The translations under genes and the position numbers were made by a program. Of a stretch of 64,000 nucleotides of DNA, positions 22,543 to 52,397 are shown one piece after another (the first letter of the stretch is position 1; every line of letters begins with the position of its first letter). The DNA is taken from the NCBI GenBank assembly GCA_016647705.1, contig CM028335.1, positions 15,645,905-15,709,904 on the forward strand, in the 5' to 3' direction. This stretch comes from Eucommia ulmoides. Taxonomy: Eukaryota > Streptophyta > Magnoliopsida > Garryales > Eucommiaceae. The notes beneath the pieces are model-generated. The model saw only the letters and a list, made by a program, of their open reading frames with translations, was not told the origin of the DNA and ran no database searches.

Positions 22543-25500
22543 TGTAAGACCTCGATTTCCCACGTATGTCATTTTATTTTCATTTTAGAGCATTTAGAAA
22601 ATTTCAGAGTAAAAATTGAGTTAATTGAAAACCTAATTAAAAGTTTTTGGGTCAATTGAAAATTTAGAAATATTTATTCTAAACTTTGGGATTCAAATTG
22701 TTACTTAAATTCTAAACTAAAAATTTTAAGGGTTCAAATTGCGATTTAAGAAATTTGTAAATAGTACATTGGGCTAAAATAAGGATGTAAAGAAGTTAGC
22801 GAGAGAAAAGAGTAATAAAATAAAAGATTTTTTTTTTAAACACATATATAACATATGCATGTGTGTGTGTGTGTTTGCTGGCCGAACTGTGAACCGAAAC
22901 AGAAAGAAGAGAGAGACCGACGACGTGACAATATTAGATCAAACATCCATCCACTTATTTCATGCATATAATTACCCATGCACGAACACCATGAATGAAA
23001 ATCTTAAAAGGAGGAAATCGGAAGAAATTTCAAAAAATTTAGAGAGAGAGAGGGAGGATCGAAAGAGGGTCGTCGGGTGTTCATGATCGCCGGTAGAAGG
23101 GGATTCTGTTCTGATCAGCCAGCGATTGTGGGTGTAAGAGGGTGTAATCATAGTTGTTGTGTTCAGACGTGAGGGTGTGTATGGTTGTTGTTCGGGATCG
23201 CTAATGGTGGTGGGTTCTCCAGCGAGCAGTGTGTTTCGGTTACAGGGGTTTGTGTGTGTGTTCCTGTGTTTTGATCCACGACTGCTATGTGTGGGTGATC
23301 GGTGTGTGGATAGGCATGATTGTTGTGTATGTGTTGTATGTAATCAGTCGTTGAGTCCCTGCCTTGAATGTGGGTGTGTGTTCCAATTTTCGACGGTGAA
23401 CAGTAGCCGAGCCTCAAACACAGTCCGTGTAGGTGTGGGTGTATTTGAACAAGTGTATGAGTGCGTGTACGATCATCGCAGTTTGTTCGATGATGGTATG
23501 TGCATGTCGTCGTCGGCAGCGTGCGTCACTGTGGGTCGTTGGTCGGTCGACGTTGTCTGTGGGAATGGCCGCTGATGTGAGGGTATGTGTGTGTTTGGCT
23601 GTTGGGCTACCGGCGGTGTGTGGGTTAATTGGTCGGTGAGTGAGTTTCGGCGGCATGTGCGTCGTCGTCGATAGTGTGAGGTTGCCGGAGGTTGGTGAGG
23701 AGAGAGAGAGAGGACGACCGGAGCAGCCAATTGAAACAAAAGAAGAAAAGGAAACGGGAAAAAAAGAAGGGAAAAGGAAAAAAAAATTACATAAACAACC
23801 CCAATAAAATCCAAAATCCATCTCGTGGCCGACGAACGATTCGGAGCAGGTAAAATCTAAATTGATTACTATTGTTATTAAATTGAATTATTAGCAAACG
23901 GGATTATAATTTGGAATTGTTAATTCTAATAATTTTTGTCACCGTCTATATTAACAAATGCGTACAGTAATTATTAATGAAACGAAATTTACCGAATAAC
24001 AATTTTTCATAATAAAAAATGGGTACGGGGAAAATTACAGAATTGAGGGTCTGCATTGCATGAATCGGTTATTTTACATAAAATATTAATTTAGGCCCTG
24101 ACACTATTAGGTTTGCAAGCACTGGAGTATCGGTAGAAGATAGTCAGTAAAAACTGTTCGGAACGGATAGCCAGGTGAGTGTACTGTCTTCTTGTCAAAT
24201 TATTTATATATATATATGATGGAAAATGGTTGTAGTTAAATTAAATGAATTCAAAATAATATGGATCAAGCAGATTTCTGGGTGGGTTGAGAAAATAGAT
24301 TTTCGATGAATTGTGTTGGTTTCGAAAGGAAGTTGAAAATAGTTTTTCGCTGAAATTTAGTGGTTTTAAAATAAAGTGGAAAATATCTGTTTTTCTAAAT
24401 ATGTATGGTTTTCAAAAAAAAAAAAAAAAAAAAAAAAAAGTGAAAAAGTAGTTTTGGTAAAATCAGACGTTTCCTTTTAAAAGAAAGTGAGAAATATGAT
24501 TTTCGGATAAAAAATCAATTTTTGGAAAAGAGAAATGAATGTGTGATCTGACGATGTTGATTTGATGATATCATTACGTTGTGATTTGATGATGATGTTA
24601 TTAATTTGACGATGTTGATGATTAGACGATATTATTGATTAGTAATTTGACGATGTTATTGACTTCACGATACTATAGTATTTATCTGCTTCAGCAAAGT
24701 AATGATTATCTGCTTCAGCAGAATGATGGTATTGATTTAACGATATTATTGATTTGACGATGTTATAGTATTTATCCGCTTCGGAGGAGTAATATTATCT
24801 GCTTCGGCGGAGTGATATTTATCTGCTTCGGCAGAGTGATGTTAGACGTTTATACAACGCAGTGATTATCCGCTTCGACGGAGTGATGGGTGTCTGTTAG
24901 GAAGGCAAATCCTACAAATGGTACGGTACCATTGCAAGTCCCGACCGTAAGGTTAAAACGATCATTAGGGCTGGCCAGTGTGTGTGTTTGAGGTGTGTGT
25001 TTGAGTTATGTGCTTAAAAAGTGTGTTTGAGATGTGTGCTTAAGATGTGATGTTTTACGTATATTGGTTGATTTGATATTTATTATCATGATGATTAGTA
25101 TGATTTTTATATTAGTTGGATTTGAATGGAACTTAATTAAGTCGTTTTATTTTTCCTACTTTTATACTGGGGATTTTACGAGTTATGTGGTATTTATAAA
25201 CTTACGCTTAATCCATTTAGATGTTGTAGAATGAGTTTTTATTATTAAAGATGTTTTTACTAAGAAGGCAGTACACTCGCAGGTGAAACAGTTAGGAGTC
25301 GGTCCCTTACTGGCGTTAGGTAGAGTCCTACGATGGAGTCGTGTGGAGGGTTGAGATGAGCTTTCTGAAGCAAACCTATGAGGGGTTCATGGTATTATAT
25401 TTTGTTGTTAGTATATTTGGGGAACGGATGTGTTCCCATAACAGAAATATGTATAGCTTCATATAGATGATGATTTATTTATATATATGCTTATTGCCGT

Positions 25501-25589
25501 GTAATAGATGGTTGGTTGGTTGTTTTTGGTAATGTCATGATGTCGTCACGTCAGCCCGGGATGTCGTGATTTCGGGATGGGTCATGACA
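22543..25589 (+). mobile_element. Solo LTR, 3.05 kb, Tekay/Del-like, complete (copy 3)
   Basis: Starts TGTAAGACCTCG and ends GGGTCATGACA. The flanks are GGTTA at 22538-22542 and 25590-25594, a perfect 5-bp duplication. It shares ends and internal order with 2190-5451: GT-rich tract (22855-23720), a string near GCACTGGAGTATCGG (24119), an A-run near 24412-24440, a minisatellite, the conserved structured block (24897-24985), and ACTAAGAAGGCAGTACAC (25258). No internal coding region, so a solo LTR. It was inserted into the Tat-like LTR. Confidence 0.92.
24677..24890 (+). repeat. Minisatellite with TATCTGCTTCGGC units in solo LTR copy 3
   Basis: At least six degenerate units with core TATCTGCTTCGGCGGAGTGAT start near 24677, 24705, 24772, 24796, 24820 and 24868. 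One similar unit is seen at about 86-110 in copy 1. It lies just upstream of the conserved block. Confidence 0.75.
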
Positions 25590-27293: not shown

Positions 27294-30200
27294 TGTTGGC
27301 CCAGTAGAATACCCAAGAGGGGTAGTGAATTGAGTAATTAAAAAATAATCAGAATAAAACTTGAATAAATCAAATAATTAATTTTAAGCCTAAATTAATT
27401 ATTATCTTTATAACACAGCGGAATAATATAATCAATCTAAGTGCACACCAAATAACAAAAATAATAAAGTAGTAATGCAGCACACAAAATATTTATACTG
27501 GTTCACCAAGCTACTCTTGGCTAATCCAGTCCTCCGAGCTCCATGGAGGTCGCACCCATTAAAACCAAGATCCCTTTAAAGTTAGGAACCAAATCCGAAC
27601 ACCGATTCTTTTACAGGCTCAGAATCAACCTTTACAATTTCCTTTTCTCAGGCTAAAGAAAAATATCTACTATTTACAGGCTAAAGAATAACCTAATTCT
27701 TTTTAACACTAAGGTACAAGAATCAAAACCTCATAAAACACTTCAACTATCATTTTCACGGGTAAGGATGAAACCTTTACAAAACACTCACACTAATTCT
27801 ATTCAGGAATAATTAATACTTCTATCTCTTTACATGAAGAGACTGAAACCCAACTACCATTAATTAAATATCTCCAATGATATTTAACCCGTCACAACTC
27901 ACCAATACAAAAATTGATAAGTAGTAAATCTCACTTAAAACTTCAACCACCCCAAATAAATAAAAACTCAATTAATATCTCAACTAGTGATAGAAATATA
28001 TGAGATACAGAAATTTGATTTTAACAAGAATATGGGTAGCAAATTGGAGCACATAATCAGATTGAATAAATTGTTTGAAAAAATATTTTCTTCAAAAATC
28101 AGAAATAATTTCTAAGATCAATTTACAAAATATAAAATAATAAACAAAAAACAATATGGAAAGATCTCACCCAAAATCCACAAAAATAATGATTAGAACA
28201 GTATAGCTTCAAATCCGGTATCAGTAAGAATAGATCGCAATTGATTATCAGAATCATTTTTATAATAGCTCACAATAACGTAGAATACTAACTCGTATAA
28301 AAACTCTCTCAAAATGATATAGAATGATTAATTCTCTTAGAAAGATTCTTTATTTTTAATAAAATTCGCAGGTCTATTTAAAGGAACATGTAATCAGTCT
28401 TTTAACGGCTAGTTTACAAGTGTCATGACAATAAAAAAACTCTTATAGACCCCTTATAATATAAGTACTTCATTTAGGTTCAATTTCACTTCATAACAAC
28501 TTTCAAAACACTCAAATAAACCCCAAAGTATTTCTCAATCAAAATAAATAAGTATAGAATCTATTTTAAGTATCAAATTGAGAAATATTAATATTTAATA
28601 AACCATATTGAAAGGAATATGGAGAATATCCCCGAAATCTCTCTCAAATCCTAACAAAAAATGACTACTTTTGGATTCAAACTCGGATCAAATAGCATCC
28701 TGAAACTACACGTTCAGTCGACTGCCCAGTCAACTGAAAGATACTGGAAGTAGCCCATGCAGTTTATCGGTCGACCGCTCGGTCGACTCTTCGATTCAGA
28801 GAGTTTGTCATGCTTTCACTGGTCGACCTATTCGATTCAGAGAGTTCAGTTGTTTTCACCGGTCGACCAGTCGATCGACTCTTCGATTCAAAGAGTTCAA
28901 CCACCATTGGCCGGTCAACTCTTCAGTCGACTGCTCATTTCTGGATCTTTTCTCTGATCTCGTTTTTTACTCACTTTCTTTTACGATTTTGCCCATTTAC
29001 CCATTTTCTCTCTTAAATAAGCTCCACTAGTATTCTTATATTTCATTTTAGTCATTCAAGATTATTTCTTTTCAATTCACATAAGAGCAAATAATTACAC
29101 TTAACCAAAACACACATAAAAAGTAAAATTCATTTTGTGTCATGTGTGTGTTCCTAAATAAGATATTAAAAGTTAAGATTTACTTGAGTTGTTTTTTATA
29201 ATTTCTTCAAACTCTTAATTCCTCTTCATCATCTTGATATCGTCATTTAGCATCCTTTCAATTTGACGTCTTCATCACTGGAACTTTAAATCTCTGAAAC
29301 ACTCAATTAAACATTAGTTTCACCCAAATATCAATACTTAATTGTTCATCAAAATCTTAGAATCAACAATCTCCATTTTTTTTATGATGACAATTAACTT
29401 TAATGTTTTTTTTAAAATAAAATATAACCACACTCTCCTTGAATTCGAGGACGGGTTCTTTAACTCGTTAGAGTATCATAATGAAGATTTCAATAATGCA
29501 TAATTTAAAAATACTCAATAAAGCACATTTTTTTAAATTTCTCCATTTTGTTTAAAACACAGTAGTTTTAGAATACTTTCCTTTAATAAAACATTACTTA
29601 TTCCCTTGTTAATAAAACACCACTAATTTATCTCCCTTTGTCATCTTCAAAAATAAATTTAGTCTAGGCAAACATCATTATGCCTAGCCATACCCAAACC
29701 GCGAATGATTTTCACAAACTAATCTTCCCCTAGTGGTTTGGTAAAAACATCAGCAAACTGGTCGGAGGTATCAATATACTCAATAATAATATCCATTTTT
29801 TTAATGTGATCATGAATAAAGTGATGTCTAACTCTATGTGCTTAGTTCGTGAGTACTGTGTAGGATTTTTACTTAGACATATAATACTTTTATTATCACA
29901 AAAGATCGGGACCTCCTCCATACATACTCCAAAATCATTTAACTGTTGCTTAATATATAAAATTTGAGCACAATAGTTACCAGCTGCCATGCATTCAGAC
30001 TCAGTAGTAGATAAGGCTATCGAATTCTGCTTCTTGCTTAACCAATAAACCAAAGCATGTCCTAACAAATGACATGATCCACTTGTGCTTTTTCGCTCAA
30101 CTTTACAACCGACAAAGTCAGCATCAGGGTAACTTACCAATTTAAAATTACCCCCCCTAGGATACCATAATCCTAGGTCAGTCGTCCCCTTTAAATAACG

Positions 30201-31398
30201 AAAAAATCGCTTAACCGCAATCAAGTGTGATTCTTTAGGACAAGATTGAAATCTAGCACAAAGACAAACACTATACATAAGGTCAGGTCTACTAGCAGTT
30301 AAGTATAACAAGGTACCAATCATACCTCGATACATTTTTTCATTAACCCTTTTGCCCGTATCATCTTTTTCAATTTTTGTAGCCTTTGTCATGGGAGTTT
30401 TGTTCTCTTTAGCTCCTTCCAAACCATATTTCTTTAATAGCTCCTTGGTATATTTAGTTTGGTTTATAAATATCCCTTCTTTGGATTGCTTAATTTGTAA
30501 TCCAAGAAAGAAATTCAACTCTCCCATCATACTCATTTCAAACTCAACCTACATTATCTTAACAAACTCTTGGCAAAAATTCTCATTAGTAGATCCAAAA
30601 ATGATATCATCAACATATACTTGTATTAATAGGATATCAGAATCAGTTTGCTTAACAAATAGTGTAATATCAAAAATACCCCTTCAAAAACCATTTTCGA
30701 TCAAATATCGGCTAAGTCTCTCATACCAAGCTCTAGGAACTTGTTTGAGCCCATACAAGGCCTTGCGAATTTTAAATACATGATCGAAAAATTTATCACT
30801 TTCAAATCCTGGGAGTTGTTCCACATAAACTTCTTCAGCTAGAAAGCCATTTAGAAATACACTCTTTACATCCATTTGATATAGTTTAAAATTACGTAAA
30901 CATGCAAAAGCGAGTAGTATTCTAATTGCTTCTAATCTAGCAACAGGAGCATAAGTTTAATCATAATCAATTCCTTCCTCTTGATTATAGCCCTGCGCCA
31001 CTAATATTTCTTTATTTTTGATTACCATACCAAATTCATCCTTTTTTTATTTCTAAATACCCATTTAGTACCAATAACTGAATGAAAATTCGATTTCGGA
31101 ACAAGACACCATACTTTGTTCTGCTCAAATTAAACTAATTCATCTTGCATTGTGGAAATCCAAGATTCATTAATTAATACCTCATTTATATTTTTAGGCT
31201 CAATTTGAGATAAGAAAACAAGATTGATTATATCCCTAATAGAAGATCGAGTACTTACACCTTTTTCGAAATTACCGATGATTTCTTTAATTGAATGTCC
31301 TGGTACTTTCTTTATAGTTCTTGGTAAAGTCGGATCCTTCTTCTTAGTTCCACCGAAATATTAATATTTAATTGTTCATCAAAATCTTAGGATCAACA
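27294..31398 (-). mobile_element. Ty1/copia element, SIRE-like, internally deleted
   Basis: The outer borders carry a perfect duplication, CAAAT at 27289-27293 and 31399-31403. On the minus strand the 3' LTR is 29368-27294 (TGTTGATTCTAAG to GGGCCAACA, 2075 bp). It is preceded by a polypurine tract (AAAAAAAATGGAGAT, plus-strand positions 29369 on). The 5' LTR is reduced to about 40 bp (31358-31398), which matches the LTR start. A deletion therefore removed the rest of that LTR, gag and the first part of pol. The LTR contains several GGTCGACC strings (28760-28935). Confidence 0.88.
29658..31345 (-). pseudogene. Decayed copia pol: reverse transcriptase and RNase H
   Basis: Read on the minus strand, the order is: an integrase-RT linker (31345 on), GTKWVF, a TYAPVAR-type string with a stop before it, the RT block KLYQMDVKSVFLNG (near 30880), KALYGLKQVPRAWY (near 30740), the YVDD catalytic motif (about 30610), MGELNFFLGLQI (near 30525), GTLLYLTASRPDLM (near 30310), then RNase H with a KSTSGSCHLLG string and the block LSTTESECMAAG (near 30000). 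The long clean frame is 30536-29730. Several stops and at least one frameshift (near 29815) break it, so it cannot make a working polyprotein. The motifs best resemble the SIRE/Maximus lineage. Confidence 0.9.
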
Positions 31399-32719: not shown

Positions 32720-35700
32720 ATGAATTCGGAAGGTTTGATGGGTTGTGGAACCGATGATGGCTATGATGCGGTGGTTGTGGGGTCCGGTTATGGAGGTTCA
32801 GTGGCGGCTTGCCGGCTGTCAATGGCCGGAGTTAAGGTTTGTTTGCTTGAGAAAGGCCGGAGATGGGAAGCTCAGGATTTTCCGACAGACAGTTTCAAGA
32901 TTATGTCGGCTGCCAGAATTGAAAACAGGCCATTGGGACTCAGCTTTGGACCCAAAGATGCTTTGTTTCGGGTCCTTTTTTTTTCATTTTCTTTTAATAG
33001 TGTGTTTTCCTTTGTTCTAATAATTTTGTTTCACTTCCTAGATATTTTTGGAACAAAAATAAAAAAGTCTTATTGGTTTAGTGTTTTTGTTCTAATATTT
33101 TTGTGTCTGTTCATAGAAAATTGGGAACAACCATAATTGTTTCTTGTTTCTAGATTTGTTTCTTTGTCCCAACTTTTCTCGTATGAGAAACAAAAATATG
33201 GGGAAAATTTAAGGGTTAATTTCACTTTGTACCTCTATAGTTAGATCGAATTTCACTTTACACCTCTATATTATTTTCGTCATCACTTACATTTTTATAC
33301 TTTAATATTTAAGTGTAACAATTAAAAATTTAACAAAAAATACTATAGGTATACAAACAAGAAGATTCACTAGCAGCAATGGCCTGCGGGCTCGGTGGAG
33401 GCTCGTTGGTGAATGCCGGAGTGATGCTTTCGACCCCGGTTCGTGCGAGAAGGAACCCTAAATGGCCCAAAGAATGGGAAAGAGATTGGGAGATCTATGA
33501 AGCTTCTGCTTTGTCCATGCTCAGGGCACAAAGCATTCCCACCAAGTTCAAAAATGCCAAAATCATGGAAAAAGTGTTGGGGGGAGAGTATGAAGAAACT
33601 AGTCAAGACCCTTTGAAATTGAGCATAAATTTTGCACCAAAAGAGCAAAAATCCAATTTCGGGAAGTCTTGGGGAATTGATAGTTGTTTGGCATGCGGAA
33701 ATTGTTTGGCAGGTTGTCCTTACAATGCCAAGATTTCAACTGATAAAACTTATCTAATCTCCGCAGTTGAGGTACATTTTTTTCTTCTTAACATTTTTCT
33801 TCTTATATGGATTAATGGCACTTTACCCTCCTGAATAATAGTTTGTTTATTTTCGTAAGCACTAAATGTTGTTTTAAACTAGAGTATATCGGTTAAATAA
33901 TTAATAAATTTTTTTAAAATGACAAATTTATCCTTATATTAACCCAACTTGACGTGGGTATATAAAGGGGAAAAAAAAAAGGAAATGGACATTACCCAAC
34001 CCGGCACAAGGATATAAATCTCAATTAATATTAAATGATTAATTAATTTTGACTTTTTGAGATTTGACTATTAATTTTACAGAAAACGTAATAATTACAC
34101 TTCAATTTATACCAATTCAGTTAAATTACAGAGTAAAATACATTTAAGCCTATATATATAGGCTAAATTGCAATGAAATTTGTGTGCAATCTTATTTTGT
34201 CCTTTGATATTTTAGTTTTTAGAAATTATTCCATGGATCAAGTTGATTGATCAAATTTGATTAATATAATATTTTTTTAATTCTCTCTGATGTGCAATTC
34301 TATTTTTAATTTGATTGAGCAGGCGGGATGTACTATTAGAACCGAATGCCAAGTTCGATTTATTGTAAGAAACAAAGAAGAAGATGATAATGATAAAATA
34401 ATTGGAGGAAAAAGGCGGCGTTGGCTTGTTTTCCTCAATGGAATCGACTACATAACTACCGATTTTGTTATCCTCGCAGGTATCACTGAATTTTGAATTT
34501 TCTCCTTTGGTTGGGAGGAAGGAAAAAAAAAAAAAAATTATTTTTTTTTTTAATTAGAAAAGAAAAATAAAAATAAAAAGAAAATAATTTACTATTTACT
34601 ATTTTATTCTTAGATATTACGAAAATAAATTAAAAATTATATTATAAAATGTATCATTATAATTTCACTCTCTTTTCGAAAAATTACTTTTTTTTTTTAT
34701 TTATTTATTTTCTTCTCAAATTAGTGAGAAAAAGTTTTGGTTAGAAAATTATACATTTTTCTTCTTCCTGTTTTTGTTTCATTTGTATTAATTACCAAAC
34801 GAGTTTTTTTTCTCCTTTTATCATCTTATCTTATATCCTTTTCATTTTCTCTCTTTTGTTGCTGATTTTAGCTGGGGTGTTTGGCACAACGGATATACTA
34901 TTCCAATCACAAATGAGAGGATTGAATGTGTCGGAGAAGCTTGGATCAGGATTGAGCTGCAATGGCAACAATGTCGCTTATCTTGCTGGAAGCTCGACGC
35001 CTTTAAATGCTTACGGCTTGAATAGAAATCAATTTCCAAATATCCACATTCCTGATCGTCCTGGACCGTCTATCTCTTCATCCTACACTTCCTCATTAGG
35101 CTTCACAATTCAGGTTTCAATTAAAATTCAATTTTAATTATATAAAAATATTATTAAATTATTCTATAGTCTTGTGTTTTTTACTTTTAAAGTTTTCTCA
35201 CATAAATATTTATGGAGAATTTACTTTTTAGTCTTTATAAACTTATTTTTTAGTCGTTACCGACATTTTAGTTAACGTTAACTATGATATCTAATACACA
35301 TTCTACGAATTTTAACATTAAGTCAATAAATTCAATCTAATTGATGTTAATCGAAGAGATAAAAAATAAAAAGAAATTCTACTGGCGTCAAATTCCTCTC
35401 TCTCTCTCTCTCTCTTTAGTTTTTCTATCTCTTATCCTAAAACCCGTTGCCCCCCTTCTCCCGCACCCGATCCCCCCATCCTGCCTCATCGGTTCCCCTC
35501 ACAACTCCCTGCACCCTACCTGTCCTCTTACCCCTTCCTTCTACCCATTACGGGTGGGGGTATTGGCGATTGCAGAGGTGGGGTGCCAACGAGGATATAT
35601 TTAAAATTACCAAGTATAAAAATTATATTATTAAATCACTAAAATAAAATATTATATTATTAGGTATATTTTCACATTTCTATTAGTAAGTAATCCAAGA

Positions 35701-38700
35701 AACATGACAGGTATAGGAACCACTGAAAGTGCCAAAGAAACAAGTGTTGATTATATCTCATAATCACAATAACACAGAATTAATCAATAAACTAAAGTAT
35801 ACATAAATATTAGGACACAACAATAAAGAATGGTAATCGAATGCATATCTATCTCGGCCATTGCAGGAGATTGAACTGTCGCAGCGAAATACATACTAGG
35901 TTTTTCTTTCTATAATTTAGATTATTGTGGTGACGGCTCTCAATGGGAGAAAATCCCTTAATCTAGACTAGGGATGGGACCTAGTTATATATACTGGGGT
36001 TTCTTGTTGGGCCCTCCCATAACGGATTTCAACGAAATCTTAAACCTACACTTGTCACTTAATTGGACTTCTACATAAAAGATGCCACAGCCCAAATCAA
36101 AATATGATCACTGATTATTTGGACTGCTTAAATAATAAATTATCTATTAACCCGTTTTTGTAAAACAATTAATTCAATAATAACTTATCATAGTTTATTT
36201 ATCATATAATCAATCAAAGAAAGGGATATATGTATTATCCCTATAATGCTTATTCTATTCATTTACAATTAATAAGAACTACATGTAGCATGGAGTTTAT
36301 CGTATATAAATAACAATGAAGCAAGAGAGTGAATAGAAAAAAAAAATCAATGTCTAATTTTCATTATCATAAATCAATTCAATTATTTAAAATAAGGCAT
36401 CAATTAAAATAAAGTGGAATTTATTCATTTACAGCAACAAAACAATTTCCTCAAATATATCAATATGTTGATTTATTAATGCTTAATTTTTAGCAATCAG
36501 TCACATTTCATATTCCTCCATTTAACTTTCAGATTTGTACATTTCATATTCATCCATTTAACTTTTAGGTTTGTAGTAAGAGATTATGGTAGTAGAATGT
36601 AACTGCATCATATATTTCACTATCATAATCTCTAAATGCAATGAGTATTAAATGGAACAACTCGAAATGTAACTAAATGTAATAAGAGATTACGTCAAAC
36701 AATCGCAATATTACAGTGTACTTAAATTATGATACCATAATTTTCTTTAGTGTAAATCTGAAAATTAAATGCAACAATCAGAAATTATAATTGATTATTA
36801 AAATTAATTTAATCATAACTGCTAAAATAATCCAAAAAAAAAAAAAAAGGTTTGATATGCTCCAAGTGATATCAAGAAATCATGATTGAAAAAGTTAAGC
36901 AATTGACGATCAACCGCAAAATAGAACTCCAATTCAATAATAGGATTGTTTACTATCTCATTTTTATTTTATATTAACCAAAAGATAAAACGTTAAATGA
37001 TATATAGAAAGCCAAGAACCACAGATCTGGACAGTTGAAAAATAATAAGATATTCCATGAAAAATTCAGTGATGAATTAAACCACCATAAACAAGCTAAA
37101 ATAAAAAAGATGACATCAAAATCCAAATCGGTTACAATAGATCTGCACAGAATAATTTGTCAAACATGTTTCTATTTCTGGAATACTCTAGAACGGAAAC
37201 ATAATTCACATCCCATCTCATCCTACATTATTGAAAGTTCTCATATCATACTTCATTCAACTCAAAATCTAAGAAATTGGAACAACTGAAATTATTAAAT
37301 TAATTTTTTGTGAGTTAAAACTAATTAGGAGAGTACACATCAACAAATCTTAATCTAGGGAGAGTGAGTATTACAATCCTATTTCAAATCATCCAATATA
37401 ATTTCTGTAAAATTTTCAACAAAAAATATTGCCTAAAAATAATTTTAAGCTAATTAAATCTCATAATAAATAATAATTAACTAAAAAATATTTTTAATCC
37501 TAAAAAAATAAAATAAATTTTACAAAAAATTAGAGGACAGAAAACCAAATGCACAGAAAAAAAAAAACCCCAAAACAAGCCACGAATGGAACCGCGCGCG
37601 ACCCCATGCACCTATGACGTGTGTGGGGTTTGCTGACTGTGGCTGGAGGTTGTCTTCAACCTCCAGTCGGGTCTCAATTGGGTCACACGACCCGATTTTG
37701 ACCCACTTCTGTAGAACCCTAAAAACTTCTGTTTATATTTAATTTTTTCGTAGGTTTATATATATTCATGTATTTCTAACATGTCTATAACAATTAAGTG
37801 AAGAAAAAATTAGAGAATTATCACCAAACACGAAGAACAAGTCGCGATTTTTCTCTCCTCCATGGCCAAAACCTAAAACTTGGTATTAACCTTTATTTCC
37901 ACCGAATTTTATATGGGTTTATACCTAATACTAATTTAAAACTTTTATAAGATGTTTAATTGTATCAAAACCACGTCTATATCCCTCGATTTTAAAAACA
38001 AATCTCGGTTTCACTAGGACTTCAAAGTCGAAAATTAAACCACGAAATACTTCTTAATTACACAACCAAATAACATGTATAATATATCAAATTAAAGATT
38101 AAATCAAGAGGAATAAAAACTCTATGTTTTTACATTCAATCAAAGCAAAACAATACATGAAATCACGGCCCCAATTTTCGATTTCGGGAGTTTCCTAGGG
38201 TTCGTAGCCGAAACTTCAACTATGAAATACTCTATGATTATGCGACCAAATAGCATGTATGATATATAAAATTAAAGCTTGAAATAGGGGGAATAAAAGC
38301 TCTAAGGTTTCATAGTCAATCGAAACGAAAAATCACATAAAATAATGCCTGCAAGTTTCTGTTTTGCTTAAGAACAAAAAATAAAAAAAAAATCTAAAAA
38401 ACAATTGTCGATCCTAAATCATGTACGTAGACTTTGATACCACATGTTGATTAAATTTCATAATCACAATAATACAGAATTAATTAATAAACTAAAGTAT
38501 ACATGAATATTAGGACACAATGATAAAAAATGGTAATCGAATGCATACCTGTTTCGACCATTGCAGGAGATTGAACTGTCTCGACGGAACACTAGGTCTT
38601 CCTCCCTATGATCTAGATTATTGTGGTGACGACTCTCAATGTCAAAAAAAAAAACCCCTTTAATCTAGACTAGAGAGGGGACCTAGTTATATATATTAAG

Positions 38701-41700
38701 TTTTTCGTTAGGCCCTCCCATAACAGATTTCAACGAAACCCTAAACCTACACTTATCACTTAACTAGACTTCTACATAAAAGACGCCACAACCCAAATTA
38801 AAATATGATCATTGATTATTTGAGTTGCTTAAATAATAAACGATCCATTAACCCGTTTTTGTAAAACAATTAATTCAATTAATGTTAACCCATAAAAATA
38901 TTTCAACAACAAGAACAACTACTAATTCATTGGCTAAAATATTCCCGAAAATTTGAAAACTAAATGATAAAGGTTTTGTGAGATTAGAATTCAATGAATT
39001 TCAAAATTCTATGTACAAATATTTGTGTAACCAAATATGGTAATTATAAAATTACACAAATAAATTCTTGATTTAAAATAGTTATCTAGATAATGAATTT
39101 GTAAATAGGTGTATAGGGTCACCTAGTTTTGTTTTGTTTTTTTGTTTTTTTTTCCTTTTTTTTTTTTTTTTTTTGAGTTTTTTTATATTTTTTAAATAAC
39201 CCAAAATATCTTAGAAATGACTCCCAAAATAAGCTGGTTAAAACCAAAAATTCAAAAATAGTTCGGGGATTCAATATGCTTAAGGAAGGTGCTTGGCACC
39301 TCAAGACATCCAATTAAAATTATTACCTAATGTCCACTTGAATTTAATTACTCTAAGTTAACTACAAGTATATAAGCATAAGTATATAAGCATGACTAGA
39401 TTAATCCCAGAGAAATCTTAATGAATAAATATTCCCTTAATCTTAGTTAAAAAAGATTAAATGAATAAAGAATCAGGCTTGAACTAATGACTTCTAATGA
39501 AAAAAGATTAATGAATGACATGCTGGTTATGTTACCAAATAATTATGCAATTAAAATATCTATATGACCTACTTCTAATGACATATTCCTTAAAAAATAT
39601 TAATGATTTTTTTTTTTTACATGATTCCGTGGTAAAAAAAATGCAATTTTTAAATTAAAATAGAATCGGAGCATGTTAGTGGTTCCTTCGGATCAAAGTC
39701 GTAATTACAGTATTAAATAATACATACTTGATTAAAAAAAAAATATATATCAATTTCATCTAATTTATTAAATAACAAAAATTAAACATTAGACAAGTAG
39801 TAAAAATCGAATAAATAAGATACACAATTAGATGCGTAAAAAGATATTTTTCAGACAAGCAAAAAGTTTGAATTTACCAAAAGAAATTCATTTAAATTTT
39901 ATTATTTGACAGTTAAACAGGGTAAAAAAATTTAAAACAAAATATAAATTTTTTAGTTTTTTTTTTTGTTTGTTTGTTTTCATTTTTTTGTTGAAACCTT
40001 TTTGCCCTCAACAAACCCAGCTCAAAGTTTGTTTAATTCCAGATTTTATTTTTTTAATGATAATTGATATATTTAAATTTTTTAATATGTTATTAGCATT
40101 TTAATTTTATTATTTTGTTCTCGATGTATTTTTCGCTGTATTATCTTAATTTTAAATTTTCATTTTAGAGGGTGGTAATGTAATTTAAATAGTTTTCAGT
40201 ATTCATATTTTATATTTATCAAACAACGCATGACGTTTCAATAATATTATTTTCTTTTTTATTCTTTATTTATTTATTTATTTCGAAGCATTCACCACTT
40301 AATTAATTTAACACTTAAAATCTCGATACTTAGCACTTAATCATCAGTTTTATCAGATAACACTGTAAACTTGTTCTTATACGTAGTTATTTCTGATGTA
40401 GAGCGCAGTTCTCCCAACGGCCTATCCATGCTTTCTATTCAAATGTATCGAAACCTATGGATGCCCATCGAACTATTCAATCATAAAAGCAACAATCGAC
40501 AAGTTGAAGCACGTTTTTGGCCTGAGGCATGGCCAAGACATGATCTTAAATGCGATGGGGTACGATGATAGTGATGGAAAAATCTCATTCGACAAAGAAA
40601 CAAATCGAATCCTCTTCAAACCGCCCAACGATCCTCTACTTCATCGCAAAATCGAAGCCTTTCAAAAACTAGCAAAGAAATTAGGAGGAACCCTCTTCAT
40701 GTCAAAGTACCGAAGCACAGCTGTTCATCTTCTTGGAGGCTGCAATGCTTCATCGGATGATTCGGGCGGGGTTTGTAACTCTAGAGGCCAAGTTTTTTAT
40801 GGGAAATCTCCCAAAAGTGTTCATCCGGGGCTCTATGTATGCGATTCCTCCATCGTTCCTTGCTCGGTTGGCTTGAATCCTTGCCTTACAATAGCTACAA
40901 TTGCTGAGAATATAAGTAGGAAACTTGTGGGGGATGTTATTGAGTATAAAATTTCAAAAGGGTTGGTGACTTTGAGTGAAAATTGGGGTACAAAACAAGG
41001 GTTGATCACTTCTTGGAAGGTAGAAAATGGGTTGAGAAATGTTGTGGTTTGTCGAGAGAAAATGGAAGGGCATGTTGGGGGTATGTCGTGCTCGGCTCAT
41101 CTCAAACTCAAGTTGAATTGTGGGAATTTGGCAGGTTTTGATGAAAAGAGGGTGGATTTTGGAGAGGATAATCCTCTTTTGAGAGGAAAAGTTGGTGGAT
41201 ATGTTGTGTTTAGAGCTTTAGAAATGGATAGATTGCATGTTATAGAGGGGGAAGTTGGTCTTTGTGAAGTGGATGTTAGAACTCCTTACACACAATACAT
41301 GATTTATCGGCTTCTCCTGGTATCTGCCTCCGGTTCAAGGTTTGACTTTTATCGTTAAATTTTGAAAATCATATCATGTGTGTTTTTCTTTTCTTTTTTC
41401 AATTTTACCCTCCCTTGATCTAACTCATCTCATGGGCGAATCCACCTTGAGCGGCCTTGGCCCCACTTTTTTTTTTTAATTAATGTACAAAAACTATATA
41501 ATTAACTTTTCCCATTACAAATTCTAAATTACTAAAAAGTATGTAGGAATCCACCTGGATGGGATCCGGCCAAACCCAATCTAGACTAGACTTGACTTAG
41601 CCCAACAGCACCCGATAACAACGGTTTTCTATTTTATACGGTCGGAAACGGGTCTAGAAAACCCTGACCTGATAATTCGGGTTGAGTCTCGGGTCCAACC

Positions 41701-44007
41701 CACATAGGCCAACCTGATCCGATAAACACCCCTAATACGAAGTACATAGTTCAAGGACTAAATTGAGAGAGTTGTAGGGACCAATTTGACACTATCTATA
41801 AACTTGGAGGGCCAATAATGTAATTTAAATACTTTCATTATGATGTAGATATATTCTTGAAGGGAAGAAAGTGATGAATCCTTACCTCTTGGGATTATAT
41901 GCATGGAGGGAGTCGACCACAATGCATGTGAGTTTCAGAAGAATAAGCCAAGAATCGATTAATCTCAAAGGGGAGCTTCGTATTTCCGCGTTTGAGTTGA
42001 TTAAAAGCACTTTTAGTCTTGGTGGGGCAAAAAGGGGAAGATTTTTATGCCTACTATTGCAATCTCTTCTCAGAACATATGTTCTTCAAGTTCCTAGAGT
42101 GATCCAAAAGGGCTTCAACTCATCAGAATTTAAACAAAATTTGTCTTATCCCAAAGATACTCTCCACAAGATCAAAACAGGTAATTTCAACTTAAATTTT
42201 TTGTGCATACAATGTGTTATAATAATTTTTAGAAGTCCAAATTTACTGTATTACATGAAAATTATCGTAATTTTTTCTTGTAAAAAATTGTATTAATTTT
42301 TATGGCGTACAATAACTTTAGACTTTTAATGGAATTATTAGATTTCTAAAAAAATTTACTGCACTAAGTGAGTTGGATGAAAATTTGAGGCTATGACCAA
42401 AAAAAAAAAAAAAAAACCTTAATTTTAAGGCTTCGTTTGGGATTACTTTTTGTTCTGAGGATAAATGAAACAATAAAAAATGCTTGTTTAAGAACTTGTT
42501 TGGTTGAGTTCTTGAAAATCGTTTCTGAAAATTTCAAAAACAACTCTAGAAAACAATTTTTGAAAATTTTGAGTAGTTGTTTAGTTTAGATTTGAAAAAG
42601 TTATATAAAATAAAATATTTATTGTTAAAATTATGAATGAATGTGTAAGTGAGAAAATTAATGGTTTATTATGCTTAGTCTAGTAGTCAAAAAATGGCAT
42701 ATCTAAATTGGGAATTTTAAAAAATTATGACTAATTTTATAATTTACTAGTTTTAGTTTGGCAATTTAAAAAAATTCTATATTAATTTAAAAAATTTATA
42801 CTTAATTTTTGTAATTTCACACACATGTCAAGAGGTTGATTTTATAACTTTTTGTGTTTAATTTGGTAATTTGAAAATTTAGGGGGGTTTATATTTAAAA
42901 GGTATTATTGATTTCATAATTTGAAAAAAGGGTAAAAACTAAAAAAAACAAAAAAATTATAGGAAAAATTATATTTTTGGTTTCTATGTCAACCTTCAAA
43001 TTTATCTAATTATATATTTTATCCCTCTACATTTGTTTCATTCCTGTAAATTTAAAATATTGTTAATGATTTTAGACAAAAAAATAAACTATGGTAAAAT
43101 GGCATTTTAATTTTTTTTTTTTTTTTTTTCTTTCATCACTCCACTGAATCTAAGACATTTTCCATTAACAATTCATATTTCTCTTTTATTTTGAGAGAAA
43201 TCGTTATGAGCAAAAAAAAATTAGAAAAAAAAAAATCTTACCTAATGGAATAATAAAATGATAAAACATCCACATTAGGAGGTTATATAATTAAAAACAA
43301 TTTTAATTTTGTGAAATTGAAATGAAACTTAAATGTGCAATTTAACAAATTTAAGGGGCCGAAATATAATTTTCCCAAAATGATTGTCTGTCTCAAACGC
43401 AAGTTATCTAGCCAAACAACCAGAGTTCAAATTTTTATTAAAAATCGCCTTCTTCCTTGTGTAGACGACGGGTTCATAATCAGTTGCAGACAATGGAAAT
43501 CGAGTAGGCTTGAAGAAGATAGAGAATTGAATCCAATTCTCCTCATCAACGGCTATTCAACCGAGAGCTATTGGCTTCCATCAGAACCAAACGATTTGAT
43601 CAGAACACTTCTTCAAGAAGGCTACGAGACATGGCTTCTGCAGCCCAGATTTCACCCTTTGAATCCTTCAAATCGGTTTACGATCGAAGATATTGGAAGA
43701 ATCGATATACCTGCAGGTACAAGATCCTTAGATTTTTATATGCAGAAATCAATTTGAAGATTGATTTGAGTTTTTTCTGTTTCTTCTCTGCAGCGATTGG
43801 GAAGATGATTGAAGTTCGTGGTGAATCGATTAGGGTTCATGTGATTGCACATTGTGTGGGAGGGCTTGCAATTCACATGGCTATAATGGGGGGACACGTT
43901 TCGGCTTCAAGAATTGCTTCGTTGTCTTGTACAAATTCCTCCATGTTCTTCGAGCTCAATGCTTCTTCAAGATTCAAAATGTGGCTTCCCCTCATCCCTG
44001 TAAATCC

Positions 44008-44041
<34 letters not shown>

Positions 44042-45288
44042 TAAATGGATTAGATTCGAATCGCATCGGGGGTGATCTGAATTTGATTAATTTGTTAGTT
44101 GGTTTATTGAATATGGATAACAGACCAAATTGGTCGATTGTGGTCCAGCATTAACTGCACAATTAGTCAAGAACACTGCTTGAAACTTAATTTCGAGTTG
44201 TGTAGACATTCATTAATGGCGACTGGAGATTCACTTTAAAGATCACAAGACTTTAAGTACCCGTTTGGCGCAATGTTCCTTACCGCAGTTTGAAATCCTC
44301 AACTAATTTGAGGCCTCAAACTTGCGATTTTGAGGGCTCCCCGCAAGTCCGCCAAACGGGTACTTCTGTTACTACATTGTCAAATAAGCTTTTAATTTTA
44401 TCTCTTTTAATTTTATGGATTTTTTATCATTTTTAAAATTTTAAAAAGTACTTAAAAAACATTACCAAATGGTGTCTAAACTCCAATTGGGACCTCATGC
44501 AGATATCAATGGCGATACTAGGCAACAACATGTCCCTCCCATTGCACCAAACCCTAAAATCCAATTTCCGACAAAAACTCCTAAAATCAATAGCTCGTCT
44601 CATGCCACGCCATGAGCGGTGCACCCTTGACGAATGTGAAGTTTTTTCAGGCATATTTGGAAACACGTTTTGGCACGAAAATGTCAGCCAAACAATGCAC
44701 TATCACCTCAACAAGCAAACCCTCCCGAGCCTCCCAATGGCTGCTTTTCCTCACCTCAGGAAGATAGTCAATGCCGGTTTCATTGTGGATGGCTCCGGAA
44801 AAAATTCTTTTTTGATCCATCCGGAGAGAATGACCCTCCCAACGCTGTATATCTCTGGCGGGAGGACTCTGTTGGTGAGTCGCCGGACTTCTTTTTTGGC
44901 GAACAAGTACATGAAGATGCACCAACCGAAGTTCAGGCACGAGAGGGTGTGTTTGGATGGTTTTGGGCATTCGGATTTGTTGATTGGGGAAGAGGCTTGT
45001 GGTAAGGTCTTTCCACACATTTTGAGTCATATTGGGTTGGCTGAGAAGGGTGGTGGTTGTGGTTGCGAAGGAGGAGGAGGGGGAGGTGGTGGTGAAGGGA
45101 AGAAGTGGAGGTGTAATAGTCAAGAGGCATTGGATTGGTGTGATGATCCATATGGGGAGGAAGCCAAAGGAGGGGGAGCTGGGTTGTGGATTTTTGGCTT
45201 TTTGTTTTCGATTTTGTTGGTTGCTTTGATTCTGCGAGTACCTGTTTGGCGGACTGTTTGGAAATCTGGTTTCCAAACATACATTTAA
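32720..45288 (+). CDS. GMC oxidoreductase / alpha-beta hydrolase fusion protein
   Basis: Exons: 32720-32971, 33349-33771, 34323-34479, 34872-35113, 40402-41339, 41849-42180, 43465-43716, 43794-43999, 44503-45288. All introns are GT-AG and the frame closes at 1195 aa. The N-terminal half is a cholesterol-oxidase-type GMC flavoenzyme: FAD-binding GSGYGGS (residues 21-27) with the fold's Glu44, GGGSLVNAG (100-108), and the catalytic pair HLLGGC (His467) and GLNPCLT (Asn517), as in type I cholesterol oxidase. A four-cysteine motif CLACGNCLAGCP lies at 197-208. Residues about 530-780 are unassigned. The C-terminal part is an alpha/beta hydrolase with AHCVGG (Cys886 at the nucleophile elbow) and GFGHSD (His1090). 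It then has a Gly-run (about 1123-1133) and a membrane helix (about 1161-1180). No N-terminal signal is evident. The likely role is oxidation of a sterol-like or long-chain alcohol coupled to acyl or ester chemistry at a membrane; the substrate is inference. The start is the first ATG; Met7 is an alternative. Confidence 0.9.
35745..38908 (-). mobile_element. Non-coding LTR element in intron 4 (LARD-like)
   Basis: Ends are TGTTGATTA (35745) and TTTCAACA (38908), with the perfect duplication ACAAG at 35740-35744 and 38909-38913. The right LTR is 38445-38908 (464 bp). The left LTR is 35745 to about 36175 and lacks the last ~35 bases of the match. Next to the right LTR, ACTTTGATACCA (38431-38442) is the reverse of a TGGTATCAAAGT primer site, so the element points leftward. 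The 2.2-kb interior has no coding potential, so the element is non-autonomous. It enlarges intron 4 to 5288 bp. Confidence 0.85.
38914..40401. other. Rest of intron 4
   Basis: AT-rich intron with a poly-T run (39159-39174). It contains a fragment resembling Tat/Ogre LTR ends in reverse (GCTTGGCACCTCAAGACATCC near 39291). No exon or RNA gene seen. The acceptor TGATGTAG ends at 40401. Confidence 0.5.
42200..42420. repeat. Repeat fragment in intron 6, related to 55130-55290
   Basis: Shared strings include ATTATCGTAATTTTTTC / AGTTATCATAATTTTTTC, AAAAAATTGTATTAA / AAAAAATTGCATTAA, and TTTTTATGGCGTACAAT / TTTTATAGCTCACAAT. Order and spacing are the same over about 150 bp. The element type is unknown. 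Confidence 0.5.
44255..44365. mobile_element. Small MITE in intron 8
   Basis: Perfect 16-bp terminal inverted repeats: AAGTACCCGTTTGGCG (44255-44270) and its complement CGCCAAACGGGTACTT (44350-44365). The whole is 111 bp with a second inner inverted repeat (CCTCAACTAATTTGAGG). The TIR type (CCGTTTGGC) resembles plant hAT-like MITEs, but I see no clear 8-bp duplication. Confidence 0.75.
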
Positions 45289-48570: not shown

Positions 48571-51500
48571 GAGTTAAATTGTAAATATATAAAAAAGTGA
48601 GGATATATATGTCATAAAAATATATCTAAAATATCTGTTACACGGTTCGATTTCGCGGTTACTATCTCAAACCAAAATAAAAACCGTTTCGGTTGTTAAT
48701 TTCAAAACTAAAACCGCAACCAAACTATTTAGTCGGTTTCAAAATCAGACCATTTGGTTCGATTTCGCTTGGTTACCTGTCGATTCGGTTTTTATTGCCA
48801 TCCCTCGCAGGTGGGGCTCGCAGTTGGTGTGCAGGTGCCATCCGTGACTTGCACGTGTCACGGCCTTTTTTTATACTTCTCTAGATTGTAATTGAAATTT
48901 GCGTGGGTTAATCTCAACCATCAATCAAAATGTCTTTTCGTTATGATTTATACATGGATTGTTAGATTTAATCAATTTTTTAGAGCAATATAGATCACTC
49001 TATTTAGAAACCTGTTACTTGTTAGTCTCTTACTATTTTTTTTTTTTTATTATTATCATTATTTACGCAAATTGTTCACATGTGATATGTAGGAAAAATA
49101 ACATTTTAGGCTTATTGCAGCAACTTTTGCATTATAGAAGGACCAGACACCGTTCAAGATTTCGTTCAGATGCAACTGCAAGAAATCCAAGATAACATCA
49201 GAAGTAGGCGAAACAAGATTTTCCTCCTCATGGAAGAGGTGGATTTTTTTATTTTTTTTTTAATTTCTCTCCCCTAGGAGTTTTATACCATGAATTTATT
49301 TCTTTTTTGTTCCCTTTGTCACTGCTAATTTATTAGTATTTTTTAGATAATTCTCATCTTAAGTCTGGGGTTTTTGAAAAAAAATAGTGAAATTTTGTGC
49401 AGGTTCGAAGATTACGAGTGCAACAACGTTTAAAGGGCTTGAAGGTTATCAATGGGAGCAGTGATGATAATGAGATGCTTGACATCCCATCATCCATACC
49501 CTTTCTTCCTCATCTGGTAATTCTTGAAACGGATTTCTGTTCTCGGGAAAACATGGAACATAAACAAATATGTTGAATCCCACATTGATGTTGAGCCACC
49601 CGATATTTGTTCACAATGGTTTGTCAAAGTCCATCCTGCGTGTGAGTTAGGCCCATTGAATTTCTACGTGGTATCAGAATCAGACTTTTGTCTGATATTG
49701 GGCTTTTTAAATCCTACATCAATGATGGGCCCCCCCAATATCCGTACACAGTGGTTTGTCAAAGTTCACCATGCGCGTGAGGGGGCATGTTGAACCCCAC
49801 ATTGATGTTGGACCTCCCGACATCTGTTCGTAGTTGTTTGTCAAAGTCCACCCTGCACGTGAGGTGACATGTTGAATCCCACATCGCTTGTGTTACCTGA
49901 TCCTGAGCTATATATAAAGCCAAGGGCAATCCTCCTCTTACAAGGCGTCTTTTGGGAGTGAGTTAGGCCCATTGAATTTTTACAAAATATAGATATATAG
50001 GAGATCCGGGAACAAAAAAAAAATCATTTATTTTTTCCAGAAACTTGTTCTATTTCAATTTTTGTTCAAGTTTTCTGGTAGCAATGTCAATAACATAAAA
50101 ATTTGATGTGGTATTTAATTTGCATGTTTTTCTTTTTGAGTAGACACCAAAGACGTTGAAGCAGCTCTATCTGACAAGCTTTTCATTCATCTCCGGAATT
50201 ATAGTGTTTGGTGGCCTTCTTGCACCAACAGTAAGCTTATTTAATTAGTGTTTCCATTCCCAAATTTATGTTTCTGTTCCCTGAAAATTTGGAATGTAAA
50301 CATAATCTGGGAACAATTCCATTCTGTTCACAGAAATTTATTCTAAAACAGATTCTTCTTGTTTCCATATTTTTGGGAATGTTTCCAGTTTGTTGAGAAC
50401 AGAAATGGGTTTGTTTTCTCTCTGAATTTTCTTTGTTTTTACTGTTTTTGAGCTTCACCGGAACCTCATTTAACTCAAAATTCTGCAGCTTGAGCTGAAA
50501 TTGGGTATCGGAGGCACCTCATATGAAGATTTTATACGCAATATGCATTTACCTATGCAATTGAGGTATTCACCTAATTACATTTTTCTTTGACCTTTCT
50601 TTGTTCTATTAATTTTAATGTTTAGGCATCTTATGTGTATTAAATATATTAATAGACATTATACTTAGGTGGTGTTTGTTAGTGTTCCCCCTTTTTTGTT
50701 TCTGTTCTCCAAAAACTGGTAACAGACAGAAATCGGGAGGGAAAAGCTGTTTATTTTATGTTCCATAATTTTAGAACGAATTTCTGACAACGTAATAGAA
50801 TTGTTCCCAGATTTCTATTTCTGTTCATGTTTTCTGGAAACAGAACAGAATTTTGGGAGCGGAAACACTAAACAAACGCCACCTTGGTGTTTCTGTTTCC
50901 TTTTTTTTTTTGGGTTTCTATAAATGGAAATCTGGGAACAAAAACATTTGTTTATGTTTAGTTCCCAAAAAATTGTTATAGAAACGTCAGAACAGAACAA
51001 ATATATATTTTTAGGCCTATTTTTCTTAATCCCAGATTTATGTTTCTGTATGGGAACAGAAAAATTAAAAAAAAAATAGAAACTCACACTTTTTTAATAG
51101 AAAAAAATGTGTAGGCCTGACTCTACTTTTATCTTCTCAATTCAGTCAGGTTGATCCTATCGTTGCATCCTTTTCTGGTGGGGCAGTTGGTGTGATTTCG
51201 GCTCTGATGCTAATCGAAGTTAACAATGCTGAACAACAAGAGAAGAAACGGTGCAAGTACTGCCATGGAACTGGTAAGTCTCAATTTTTGTTCCCAGATT
51301 TCTACAGAAACAAAAAAGAATTGCTTCTGTTCTGCTCCCAGATTTTTAGAACCAAAATGTTGGGAACAGAATTTTTTTTTTTTCAAATTTGTGTCTCTTC
51401 AAGTTTTCTGGGAATAAAAATTTGGTGTGTTTTGGTACAAGGATATCTGGCTTGTGCACACTGTTCTGCTAGCGGAGTTTGCTTAAATGTTGAGCCCATT

Positions 51501-52397
51501 TCGGTGTCAAGTGCTTCTGATCGGCCATTGCAAGCTCCAACTACTCGGAGGTGTCTAAACTGCTCTGGTGCAGGAAAGGTACTTATTCATTTCTTTTTTC
51601 TTTTTTTCAAAAATTTGGATCAATAAAAGAAAGAACCCACCCCCCACCCCCCACCCCCCCCCCCACCCCCCTAAACACACAACAAAAAAAAAAAATTGTT
51701 TTTGTACTATTCCAAGATTTTTAAGAACAAATTTCTGGGATGATGATTTAAGGCCCCATCCCATTTAGTGTTTCAGCTCCCAAATTCTTGTTCCTTTCCC
51801 AGAATTTTGAAATTTAAGAATAGAAACATGTTTGATAATATGTTTCTGTTCCCAAATATTCGCAAAAAATTGAGATTCAATACCGAAATTCTTGGAATTT
51901 TGAAGAAAAAAAAACTTGTTTCCATTCATTCCCCACATATTCTCTTAAAGGGACAAGATCGGTATTTTTGAAATATATTTGAAATTCTTAATGAGCTCTC
52001 CCCACATATTTTTTTCTTTTCTTTTTTTCCCCTTTTATTAATCGATTTAAGGAAAAACACAATAAAGCTCTTTTCTATAATTTTATTTAGTTGTAATTAA
52101 TCTTGTACATGTGTTTTTATTTTACTATAATTTGCAAAAATTGATTGCCTAAAAGAAATATGAAATTTGTCTTTTATATTTAAAGTAAAATTAAAAAAAA
52201 AAAATGGATATGAGAACTAGTATTGCGACTAAATGTTCTTATGTGGTTTTGTTCTAAAAAATTATAAAATAATTTAAGCAAAACTGTTTTTTCTGTTCCC
52301 AGAATTATTGATAATTCTCATCTCATTTTCGTGGGAGTAGAAACAAGAAAATAAAAATGGTAACCAAATGCCACCCAAACAACCTGTTTTTTCTTCT

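Follow-up and report, generated by a model that had tools for sequence, protein, structure and literature searches.

A predicted Eucommia ulmoides polypeptide joining a GMC oxidoreductase module, a beta-barrel and an alpha/beta-hydrolase module

Can one plant gene encode both a flavin-dependent oxidoreductase and an alpha/beta hydrolase in a single chain, and what chemistry might such a protein carry out? The question is raised by a gene at positions 32720-45288 of a 64,000-nucleotide stretch of the Eucommia ulmoides genome (GenBank assembly GCA_016647705.1, contig CM028335.1, positions 15,645,905 to 15,709,904 of the forward strand), hereafter called the window. An initial annotation, made without database searches, had read the locus as a cholesterol-oxidase-type member of the GMC family joined to an alpha/beta hydrolase and a membrane tail. 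Comparison of the predicted protein with its bacterial relatives makes us highly confident that three modules, a GMC module, a middle barrel and a hydrolase module, form one plant polypeptide. This confidence, like that expressed below in a bound cluster and in a combined mechanism, is a judgement and was not computed.

Continuity of the gene and of its product

Rebuilding the gene from the sequence gave nine exons with 3588 coding bases, which encode 1195 amino acids followed by a stop codon, with zero internal stops; 8/8 introns are of the GT-AG type. Although the splicing is inferred from the sequence, our re-derivation reproduced exactly the in-frame nine-exon model that had been annotated. 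The features of the gene are as follows (FAD, flavin adenine dinucleotide).

32720-32971, plus strand: exon 1, residues 1-84, with the FAD site GSGYGGS at 32780-32800 (residue 21)
33349-33771, plus strand: exon 2, residues 85-225, with a four-cysteine motif inside
33685-33717, plus strand: CX2CX2CX3C motif (Cys197, Cys200, Cys203, Cys207), predicted iron-sulfur site
34323-34479, plus strand: exon 3
34872-35113, plus strand: exon 4, up to residue 358
35114-40401, plus strand: intron 4, 5288 bases, with a direct-repeat pair within
40402-41339, plus strand: exon 5, from residue 359 on, with the GMC end and the first half of the barrel in one unbroken frame
40726-40728 and 40876-40878, plus strand: codons of His467 and Asn517, both in exon 5
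40936-42180, plus strand: middle (barrel) domain, residues 537-781, split by intron 5 over exons 5 and 6
41849-42180, plus strand: exon 6, ending at residue 781, with the other half of the barrel
43465-43716, plus strand: exon 7, where the alpha/beta-hydrolase module begins
43794-43999, plus strand: exon 8, with the nucleophile elbow AHCVGG (residue 884) and the Cys886 codon at 43853-43855
44503-45288, plus strand: exon 9, with Thr1056 (44866-44868), His1090 (44968-44970), a Gly/Cys-rich linker and the stop
45178-45246, plus strand: hydrophobic segment, residues 1160-1182, predicted membrane anchor

In the spliced protein His467 lies within AVHLLGG, and GFGHSD is found at residue 1087. With this protein as query, tblastn matched 39 of 72,556 plasmid records; in six of them a single place accounted for 80% or more of the query, with identities of 23.7-25.2%. 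The best piece aligned residues 32-1111 (about 90%) with a single bacterial open reading frame (ORF; E 5e-71, 25% identity), and the five high-coverage matches that were retrieved were all single bacterial ORFs of 1120-1169 amino acids. The bacterial oxidase-hydrolase fusions that the initial annotation had mentioned were thus found, and as co-linear proteins. Such fusions of about 1120-1170 amino acids (for example WP_149201188.1, WP_063474201.1, WP_338815766.1), annotated as 'alpha/beta fold hydrolase' or 'GMC oxidoreductase' in records that give no function, carry the three modules in the same order as the plant protein, to which they are 24-27% identical; the aligned ones lack a hydrophobic C-terminal tail.

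Residues 537-781 are a separate small beta-barrel domain. A barrel profile built from bacteria only matched the plant segment with an E value of 6e-15 (residues 618-725), giving 18 bits with exon 5, 12 bits with exon 6 and 49 bits with the two joined, and none of 200 shuffles was reported at E <=10. Since the profile scores across the exon 5/6 splice, it supports the fusion. Exons 7-9 matched a hydrolase profile at 4e-52 when the plant row was present in the alignment and taken out before profile building, and a profile aligned without the plant sequence gave 172 bits over residues 777-1110. No Pfam family matched the middle region above cut-off in any of 13 bacterial members (best E 0.096). 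The domain was detected in 58/146 genomes of the phylum that includes a Corallococcus genome (G005; some matches weak), 8/149 of that of a Leptospirales bin (G006; one weak), 4/299 of that of the genome holding the Paraburkholderia locus (G001) and 4/247 of that of Aquiflexum (G002), the centre genome being included in each count.

Module profiles were then scanned over 103 bacterial loci (L001-L087 and L144-L159), which are not all independent, several being myxobacterial. A barrel or hydrolase module scored above 60 bits in 36 of them. GMC, barrel and hydrolase lay in one ORF in 15 of these 36 and as separate ORFs of one stretch, variously arranged and separated by as much as about 5 kb, in 14; six were incomplete within the stretch read, and one, from Ensifer (L006, 5821-11547), encodes 1908 amino acids with GMC and hydrolase modules and a C-terminal PhoD-like phosphatase, the barrel being undetected. 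The initial annotation had named separately encoded halves in homologues as the observation that would count against a fusion. Halves were indeed split in 14/36 loci, and GMC and hydrolase were joined in 16/36; because of these joined ORFs, the split loci do not refute the plant fusion. They do favour a reading in which two adjacent plant genes were taken for one, which, like bacterial contamination, we consider highly improbable and have rejected. Exon 5 alone links the end of the GMC module to the start of the barrel in the same frame, the barrel runs on in register into exon 6, and the one-ORF bacterial fusions share the module order. These readings are also opposed by the eight introns, by the repeats in intron 4 and by a site 15.6 Mb into contig C11.

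The own-genome search covered 946,670,599 bases in 391 contigs and gave ten matching stretches (15 candidates scored), of which nine correspond to this gene's exons and one to a different GMC gene with 30% identity. No second copy was found in these 947 Mb, and therefore the gene is single-copy at the search sensitivity used. GMC_oxred_C matched at least eight places in the genome, this gene being one. A pattern scan of genome contigs with the plant protein alone, using patterns that were not the conserved ones, found no relative; a later scan with an alignment of relatives matched at least 590 stretches, at least 199 of them with a coding sequence for a relative, of which the 80 best were retained. 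Searched with that alignment, viral contigs yielded no relative. In a tree of 28 rows, which left out L006 and the split loci L012 and L150, 14 of the 15 bacterial fused rows formed one clade and the fused label needed two changes. The plant branch measured 3.3-3.7 changes per column and joined another long branch, and because of this length the tree could not place the plant origin.

Within intron 4, positions 35745-36178 and 38445-38879 are direct repeats of about 440 bases that are 85% identical, likely the ends of an insertion of the long-terminal-repeat type that lengthened the intron.

The GMC module and its four cysteines

The first module (about residues 14-536) matched Pfam GMC_oxred_N with 43.3 bits (cut-off 23, E 4.9e-11) and GMC_oxred_C with 37.6 bits (cut-off 24.6, E 3.9e-9). 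It also matched the NCBIfam model CholsOxChoxAB (NF058674) with an E value of 1e-39 and 136.4 bits, short of the equivalog cut-off of 850. The annotated FAD site and His467/Asn517 pair were found in their places. Both residues of the pair sit on columns that are invariant in alignments with the bacterial relatives; Asn517 aligns with the cholesterol oxidase Asn, and the His stretch is out of register in the same alignment. By homology the two residues are probably the catalytic pair. When the bacterial relatives were included in a GMC profile, it detected cholesterol oxidase at 3e-66, glucose dehydrogenase at 6e-22, cellobiose dehydrogenase at 2e-18 and fructose dehydrogenase at 1e-17. A structure was modelled from a 30-row alignment for the Paraburkholderia fusion (L009), a bacterial relative rather than the plant protein, with a mean predicted local distance difference test score of 89.2 and a predicted template modelling score of 0.71. 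Among the best 50 of its 1977 Foldseek matches, cholesterol oxidases took ranks 1-12, and fructose dehydrogenase and FAD-glucose dehydrogenase ranks 13-21.

The kinship to cholesterol oxidase proposed by the initial annotation therefore stands, and it is the plain label 'oxidase' that the four-cysteine motif calls into question. Cholesterol oxidase of Streptomyces, a GMC enzyme with non-covalent FAD (PDB 1b4v), has the same fold and ranks top in both sequence and structure searches, but it lacks the cysteine cluster, the barrel, the hydrolase and the tail, all of which are present in the plant protein. Gln358 had been read by eye as the counterpart of Glu361 of cholesterol oxidase, which we take to be the isomerising residue; this reading was dropped because the region profile matched no cholesterol oxidase.

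Residues 197-207 of the plant protein read CLACGNCLAGC, that is CX2CX2CX3C, a motif that the initial annotation overlooked. The four cysteines are invariant in an alignment of eight sequences (the plant protein and seven bacterial fusions). The motif was present in 41/41 GMC ORFs of the module-bearing bacterial loci and in 52/56 of those in the remaining loci, counts that are biased because the sample was partly fetched by a pattern scan in which one of two patterns was the cysteine motif itself. Unbiased counts were obtained from seven loci found with the plant protein (8/8 GMC ORFs) and from 16 hand-picked stretches found via the barrel profile (17/17).

What might these cysteines bind? The FAD-glucose dehydrogenase of Burkholderia is reported to have a 3Fe-4S cluster with Cys212, Cys218 and Cys222 as ligands, at a distance of 12-13 A from N5 of FAD (PMC6719666). 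Cys197, Cys203 and Cys207 have the CX5CX3C spacing given there for the ligands, and Cys200 would complete a ferredoxin-like set. A profile of the motif region aligned, over positions 23-115, to residues 209-298 of the glucose dehydrogenase, so that the motif cysteines would fall on 212, 218 and 222 if no gap intervenes, and a 40-residue profile of the motif found ferredoxins best (2e-4). The four-cysteine motif with its 3Fe-4S-like spacing argues that the GMC half is probably an iron-sulfur dehydrogenase instead of a plain oxidase, and a bound iron-sulfur cluster in the plant protein appears likely. The catalytic subunits of the FAD glucose and fructose dehydrogenases of the direct-electron-transfer type (PDB 6a2u, 7w2j) share the GMC fold and, for the glucose enzyme, the His/Asn pair and the CX5CX3C cysteines at the same place. 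They differ in being bacterial sugar enzymes without a fused hydrolase, and the glucose dehydrogenase has a hitchhiker and a multihaem subunit (PMC6719666); the plant protein has the extra Cys200.

Other GMC genes of the same genome share the GMC_oxred_C match. None of the frames in seven of these loci (L088-L094) contained the full CX2CX2CX3C motif; since each locus covers about 3.4 kb, the frames may miss exons. L093 and L094 (contigs C3 and C14), which we take to be long-chain-alcohol-oxidase-like, retain three of the four cysteines in the equivalent position (CGSC[CG]YGC), and L088 and L090, presumably HOTHEAD-like, have none of them in the frames read; the frames of these four genes run to 530-616 amino acids. 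Cysteine clusters in plant GMC enzymes are thus not confined to this gene, and L093 and L094 might conceivably bind a cluster too.

The cysteine-centred hydrolase module and the tail

On the plant protein (about residues 777-1110) Pfam Abhydrolase_6 matched only below cut-off. A profile of 24 bacterial modules detected gastric lipase at 6.4e-17 (profile positions 3-325), lysosomal acid lipase/cholesteryl ester hydrolase at 1e-14 (best stretch 3-116) and polyhydroxyalkanoate (PHA) synthase at 7e-7, over the nucleophile elbow. When aligned with gastric lipase, the profile has a Cys opposite the GHSQG serine and an Asn opposite the aspartate of KD. This Cys was found in 31/31 bacterial modules scoring above 100 bits, with a pattern that demanded a preceding His, and HxD likewise in 31/31. 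Invariant in the 24-row bacterial alignment are the Cys and the Asn, both the His and the Asp of HxD, and two more Asp; the plant protein retains Cys886, His1090, Asp1092 and Asp862. Taken together, the Cys nucleophile, the Asn/Thr acid site and the lipase matches identify the hydrolase half, at the level of sequence, as a cysteine-centred relative of the acid lipases.

Gastric and lysosomal acid lipases (PDB 1hlg, 6v7n) share the alpha/beta-hydrolase match and have the elbow and HxD at the same place, but they use Ser and Asp where the modules have Cys and, at the acid position, an Asn (bacteria) or a Thr (plant). The serine nucleophile and the catalytic Asp of an acid lipase are thus both absent from the plant protein, and His1090 is kept. 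The AHCVGG elbow and the GFGHSD histidine are where they had been annotated, in a form atypical for a serine hydrolase. With Cys for Ser and the conserved triad Asp missing, neither the 'complete landmarks' claimed for this half nor the plain label 'hydrolase' can be retained. PhaC, the PHA synthase, has a cysteine nucleophile elbow. It matches the bacterial modules weakly (PDB 6k3c, 9knj; TIGR01836 3e-10), and the NCBIfam PhaC scores lay far below their cut-offs, at best 13.7 of 622.65 bits for the plant protein and at most 39.5 of 365.3 bits for the five bacterial modules tested.

Beyond this module and the Gly/Cys-rich linker, the strongest hydrophobic windows lie at residues 1160-1182, the strongest starting at 1160, so the hydrophobic segment described by the initial annotation is present; it is predicted to be a membrane anchor. 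Six of the seven aligned bacterial fusions stop before the tail, and the Ensifer protein carries a different extension.

The annotated view would make the protein an O2-using oxidase of the cholesterol-oxidase type with an ordinary serine-type hydrolase, for example a steryl ester hydrolase with a sterol oxidase. The nearest solved structures are cholesterol oxidases, and the best matches of the hydrolase half are gastric lipase and lysosomal acid lipase/cholesteryl ester hydrolase; from both kinships a pairing of sterol ester and sterol as substrates makes chemical sense. We regard this view as unlikely, given that the four-cysteine cluster of the 41/41 bacterial GMC ORFs (partly motif-fetched) is absent from cholesterol oxidase, that the hydrolase has a Cys nucleophile and no acid, and that the plant protein reaches 136 bits against the cholesterol oxidase cut-off of 850. 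One could also suppose that the cysteines are structural or hold another metal, that the hydrolase half is a dead scaffold and that the protein acts only as an FAD alcohol oxidase or dehydrogenase. The loss of the Asn at the acid position in the plant and the three cysteines kept in two long-chain-alcohol-oxidase-like genes of the same genome fit this supposition, which is nevertheless decidedly doubtful, since Cys886, His1090 and Asp1092 are retained despite only about 25% identity to the bacterial relatives.

A combined mechanism, its bacterial setting and the rest of the window

How might the modules work together? Their presence in one ORF (15/36) or one stretch (14/36) of the bacterial loci points to a functional link, and two consecutive steps on one substrate are a reasonable expectation. 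We tentatively favour a membrane-tethered polypeptide that carries out two connected reactions on a bulky, hydrophobic alcohol or an ester of it; this is a possibility rather than a probability. In the N-terminal module His467 and Asn517 would transfer hydride from a secondary alcohol onto FAD, and the electrons would leave via the iron-sulfur cluster at Cys197/200/203/207 to an outside acceptor, making the enzyme mainly a dehydrogenase. The barrel at 537-781 may bind or hand over the hydrophobic substrate, or hold the modules together. The Cys886-His1090 centre would take up this lipid's acyl group as a thioester, a step that would free or load the alcohol oxidised by the GMC module, and the C-terminal helix would anchor the protein. 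From the kinship to acid lipase and cholesterol oxidase, a steryl ester or similar lipid is a plausible substrate, the residues and scores of the plant protein placing it in neither family.

Several observations weigh against this proposal, which draws on the sequence of a single plant protein. Thr1056 replaces the Asn that is invariant in 24/24 bacterial modules and Glu856 one of the invariant Asp, so that the plant hydrolase may have little activity or a different catalytic arrangement. For the barrel, Foldseek gave no match under E 0.001 among the families in the matches listed, which makes substrate binding by this domain a guess. Cysteine motifs may also bind other metals or form disulfides; Pfam Fer4/ferredoxin models matched the plant protein only below cut-off, and the motif-region profile found cholesterol oxidases, which are without the cysteines, at 1e-11, compared with 1.5e-4 and 0.005 for iron-sulfur dehydrogenases. 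As cholesterol oxidases lack these cysteines, their sterol chemistry is not directly transferable. The glucose dehydrogenase hands its electrons to a multihaem subunit (PMC6719666).

A real cluster would mean that a plant GMC enzyme feeds electrons to an acceptor without producing peroxide, which changes the assays and the partner to be sought.

The bacterial loci have recurring neighbours. Metallophosphoesterase was matched by Pfam in 10 of 11 neighbour ORFs tested, nine in module loci and the tenth (L016) beside a GMC gene alone; the matches in L002, L012 and L146 were below the curated cut-off and that in L017 equalled it. A 471-amino-acid ORF before the Persicobacter fusion (L001) looked metallophosphoesterase-like by its first residues, but no such family matched and it was set aside. 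Patatin was joined to the barrel in 4/4 ORFs tested (L146, L150, L154, L155) and separate in L158. Acetoacetate-decarboxylase family proteins were found in 2/2 neighbour ORFs tested, and L159 contains a P450. In a Rhizobium record the locus lies near PhaE, a CoA-transferase and an iron alcohol dehydrogenase. Separate hydrolase modules lie near the four patatin-barrel ORFs, accompanied in L146, L150 and L155 by GMC modules. A gene for a RoxA-like cytochrome directly follows the fused gene in L157 (10200-12137), a possible electron acceptor.

Some of these neighbours suggest a different order of events, in which oxidation by the GMC module yields a beta-keto lipid and thiol chemistry at the Cys-His centre then cleaves or transfers this product, as a retro-Claisen or an acyl-transfer step, with no ester hydrolysis; in bacteria the acetoacetate-decarboxylase-like partner would take the beta-keto product. 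The bacterial Cys-His-Asn set with its weak kinship to PHA synthases, both decarboxylase-family neighbours, the four patatin-barrel ORFs and the Rhizobium locus near PhaE and CoA-transferase are in its favour. We judge it quite unlikely for the plant protein, as the PHA synthase cut-offs are far from reached, the plant is without the Asn, and the neighbouring decarboxylase and patatin genes go with the split forms of bacteria and not with the plant.

A broader and more speculative proposal, to which we give a rather low probability, is that the gene represents, in plants, a modular lipid system common to Myxococcota, Spirochaetota, Bacteroidota, Pseudomonadota and others. In this system an iron-sulfur flavin dehydrogenase that oxidises a hydroxy-lipid, a carrier barrel outside Pfam and a Cys-His centre on an acid-lipase fold (Ser to Cys, Asp to Asn or Thr), for thiol acyl transfer or carbon-carbon cleavage in place of hydrolysis, would act together, as one tail-anchored protein in the plant. 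The plant protein would then be an enzyme of the cholesterol-oxidase type whose electrons leave via an iron-sulfur cluster. Our literature searches found no report on this plant gene, on the bacterial module set or on its function. The 36 bacterial loci tie a GMC oxidoreductase, an uncharacterised barrel and an alpha/beta hydrolase into one likely functional unit, and with their recurring neighbours they make it possible to look for the substrate in a bacterium that can be cultured. That the lipase fold has a Cys nucleophile in every copy examined (31 bacterial and the plant one) hints at non-hydrolytic chemistry.

Elsewhere in the window, a 272-amino-acid frame on the minus strand at 29730-30548 carries the end of a Copia-type reverse transcriptase (RVT_2, 30.9 bits; cut-off 31.6). 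On the plus strand, 51069-51626 holds CXXCXGXG pieces of a DnaJ-type zinc finger (23.7 bits, below the 32.7 cut-off), probably exons of a neighbouring gene. Two diverged repeat pairs link the first 5 kb with 23.7-25.6 kb (350-971 with 24898-25557, 72% identical; 3807-4502 with 23739-24455, 71%) and are probably copies of a dispersed repeat.

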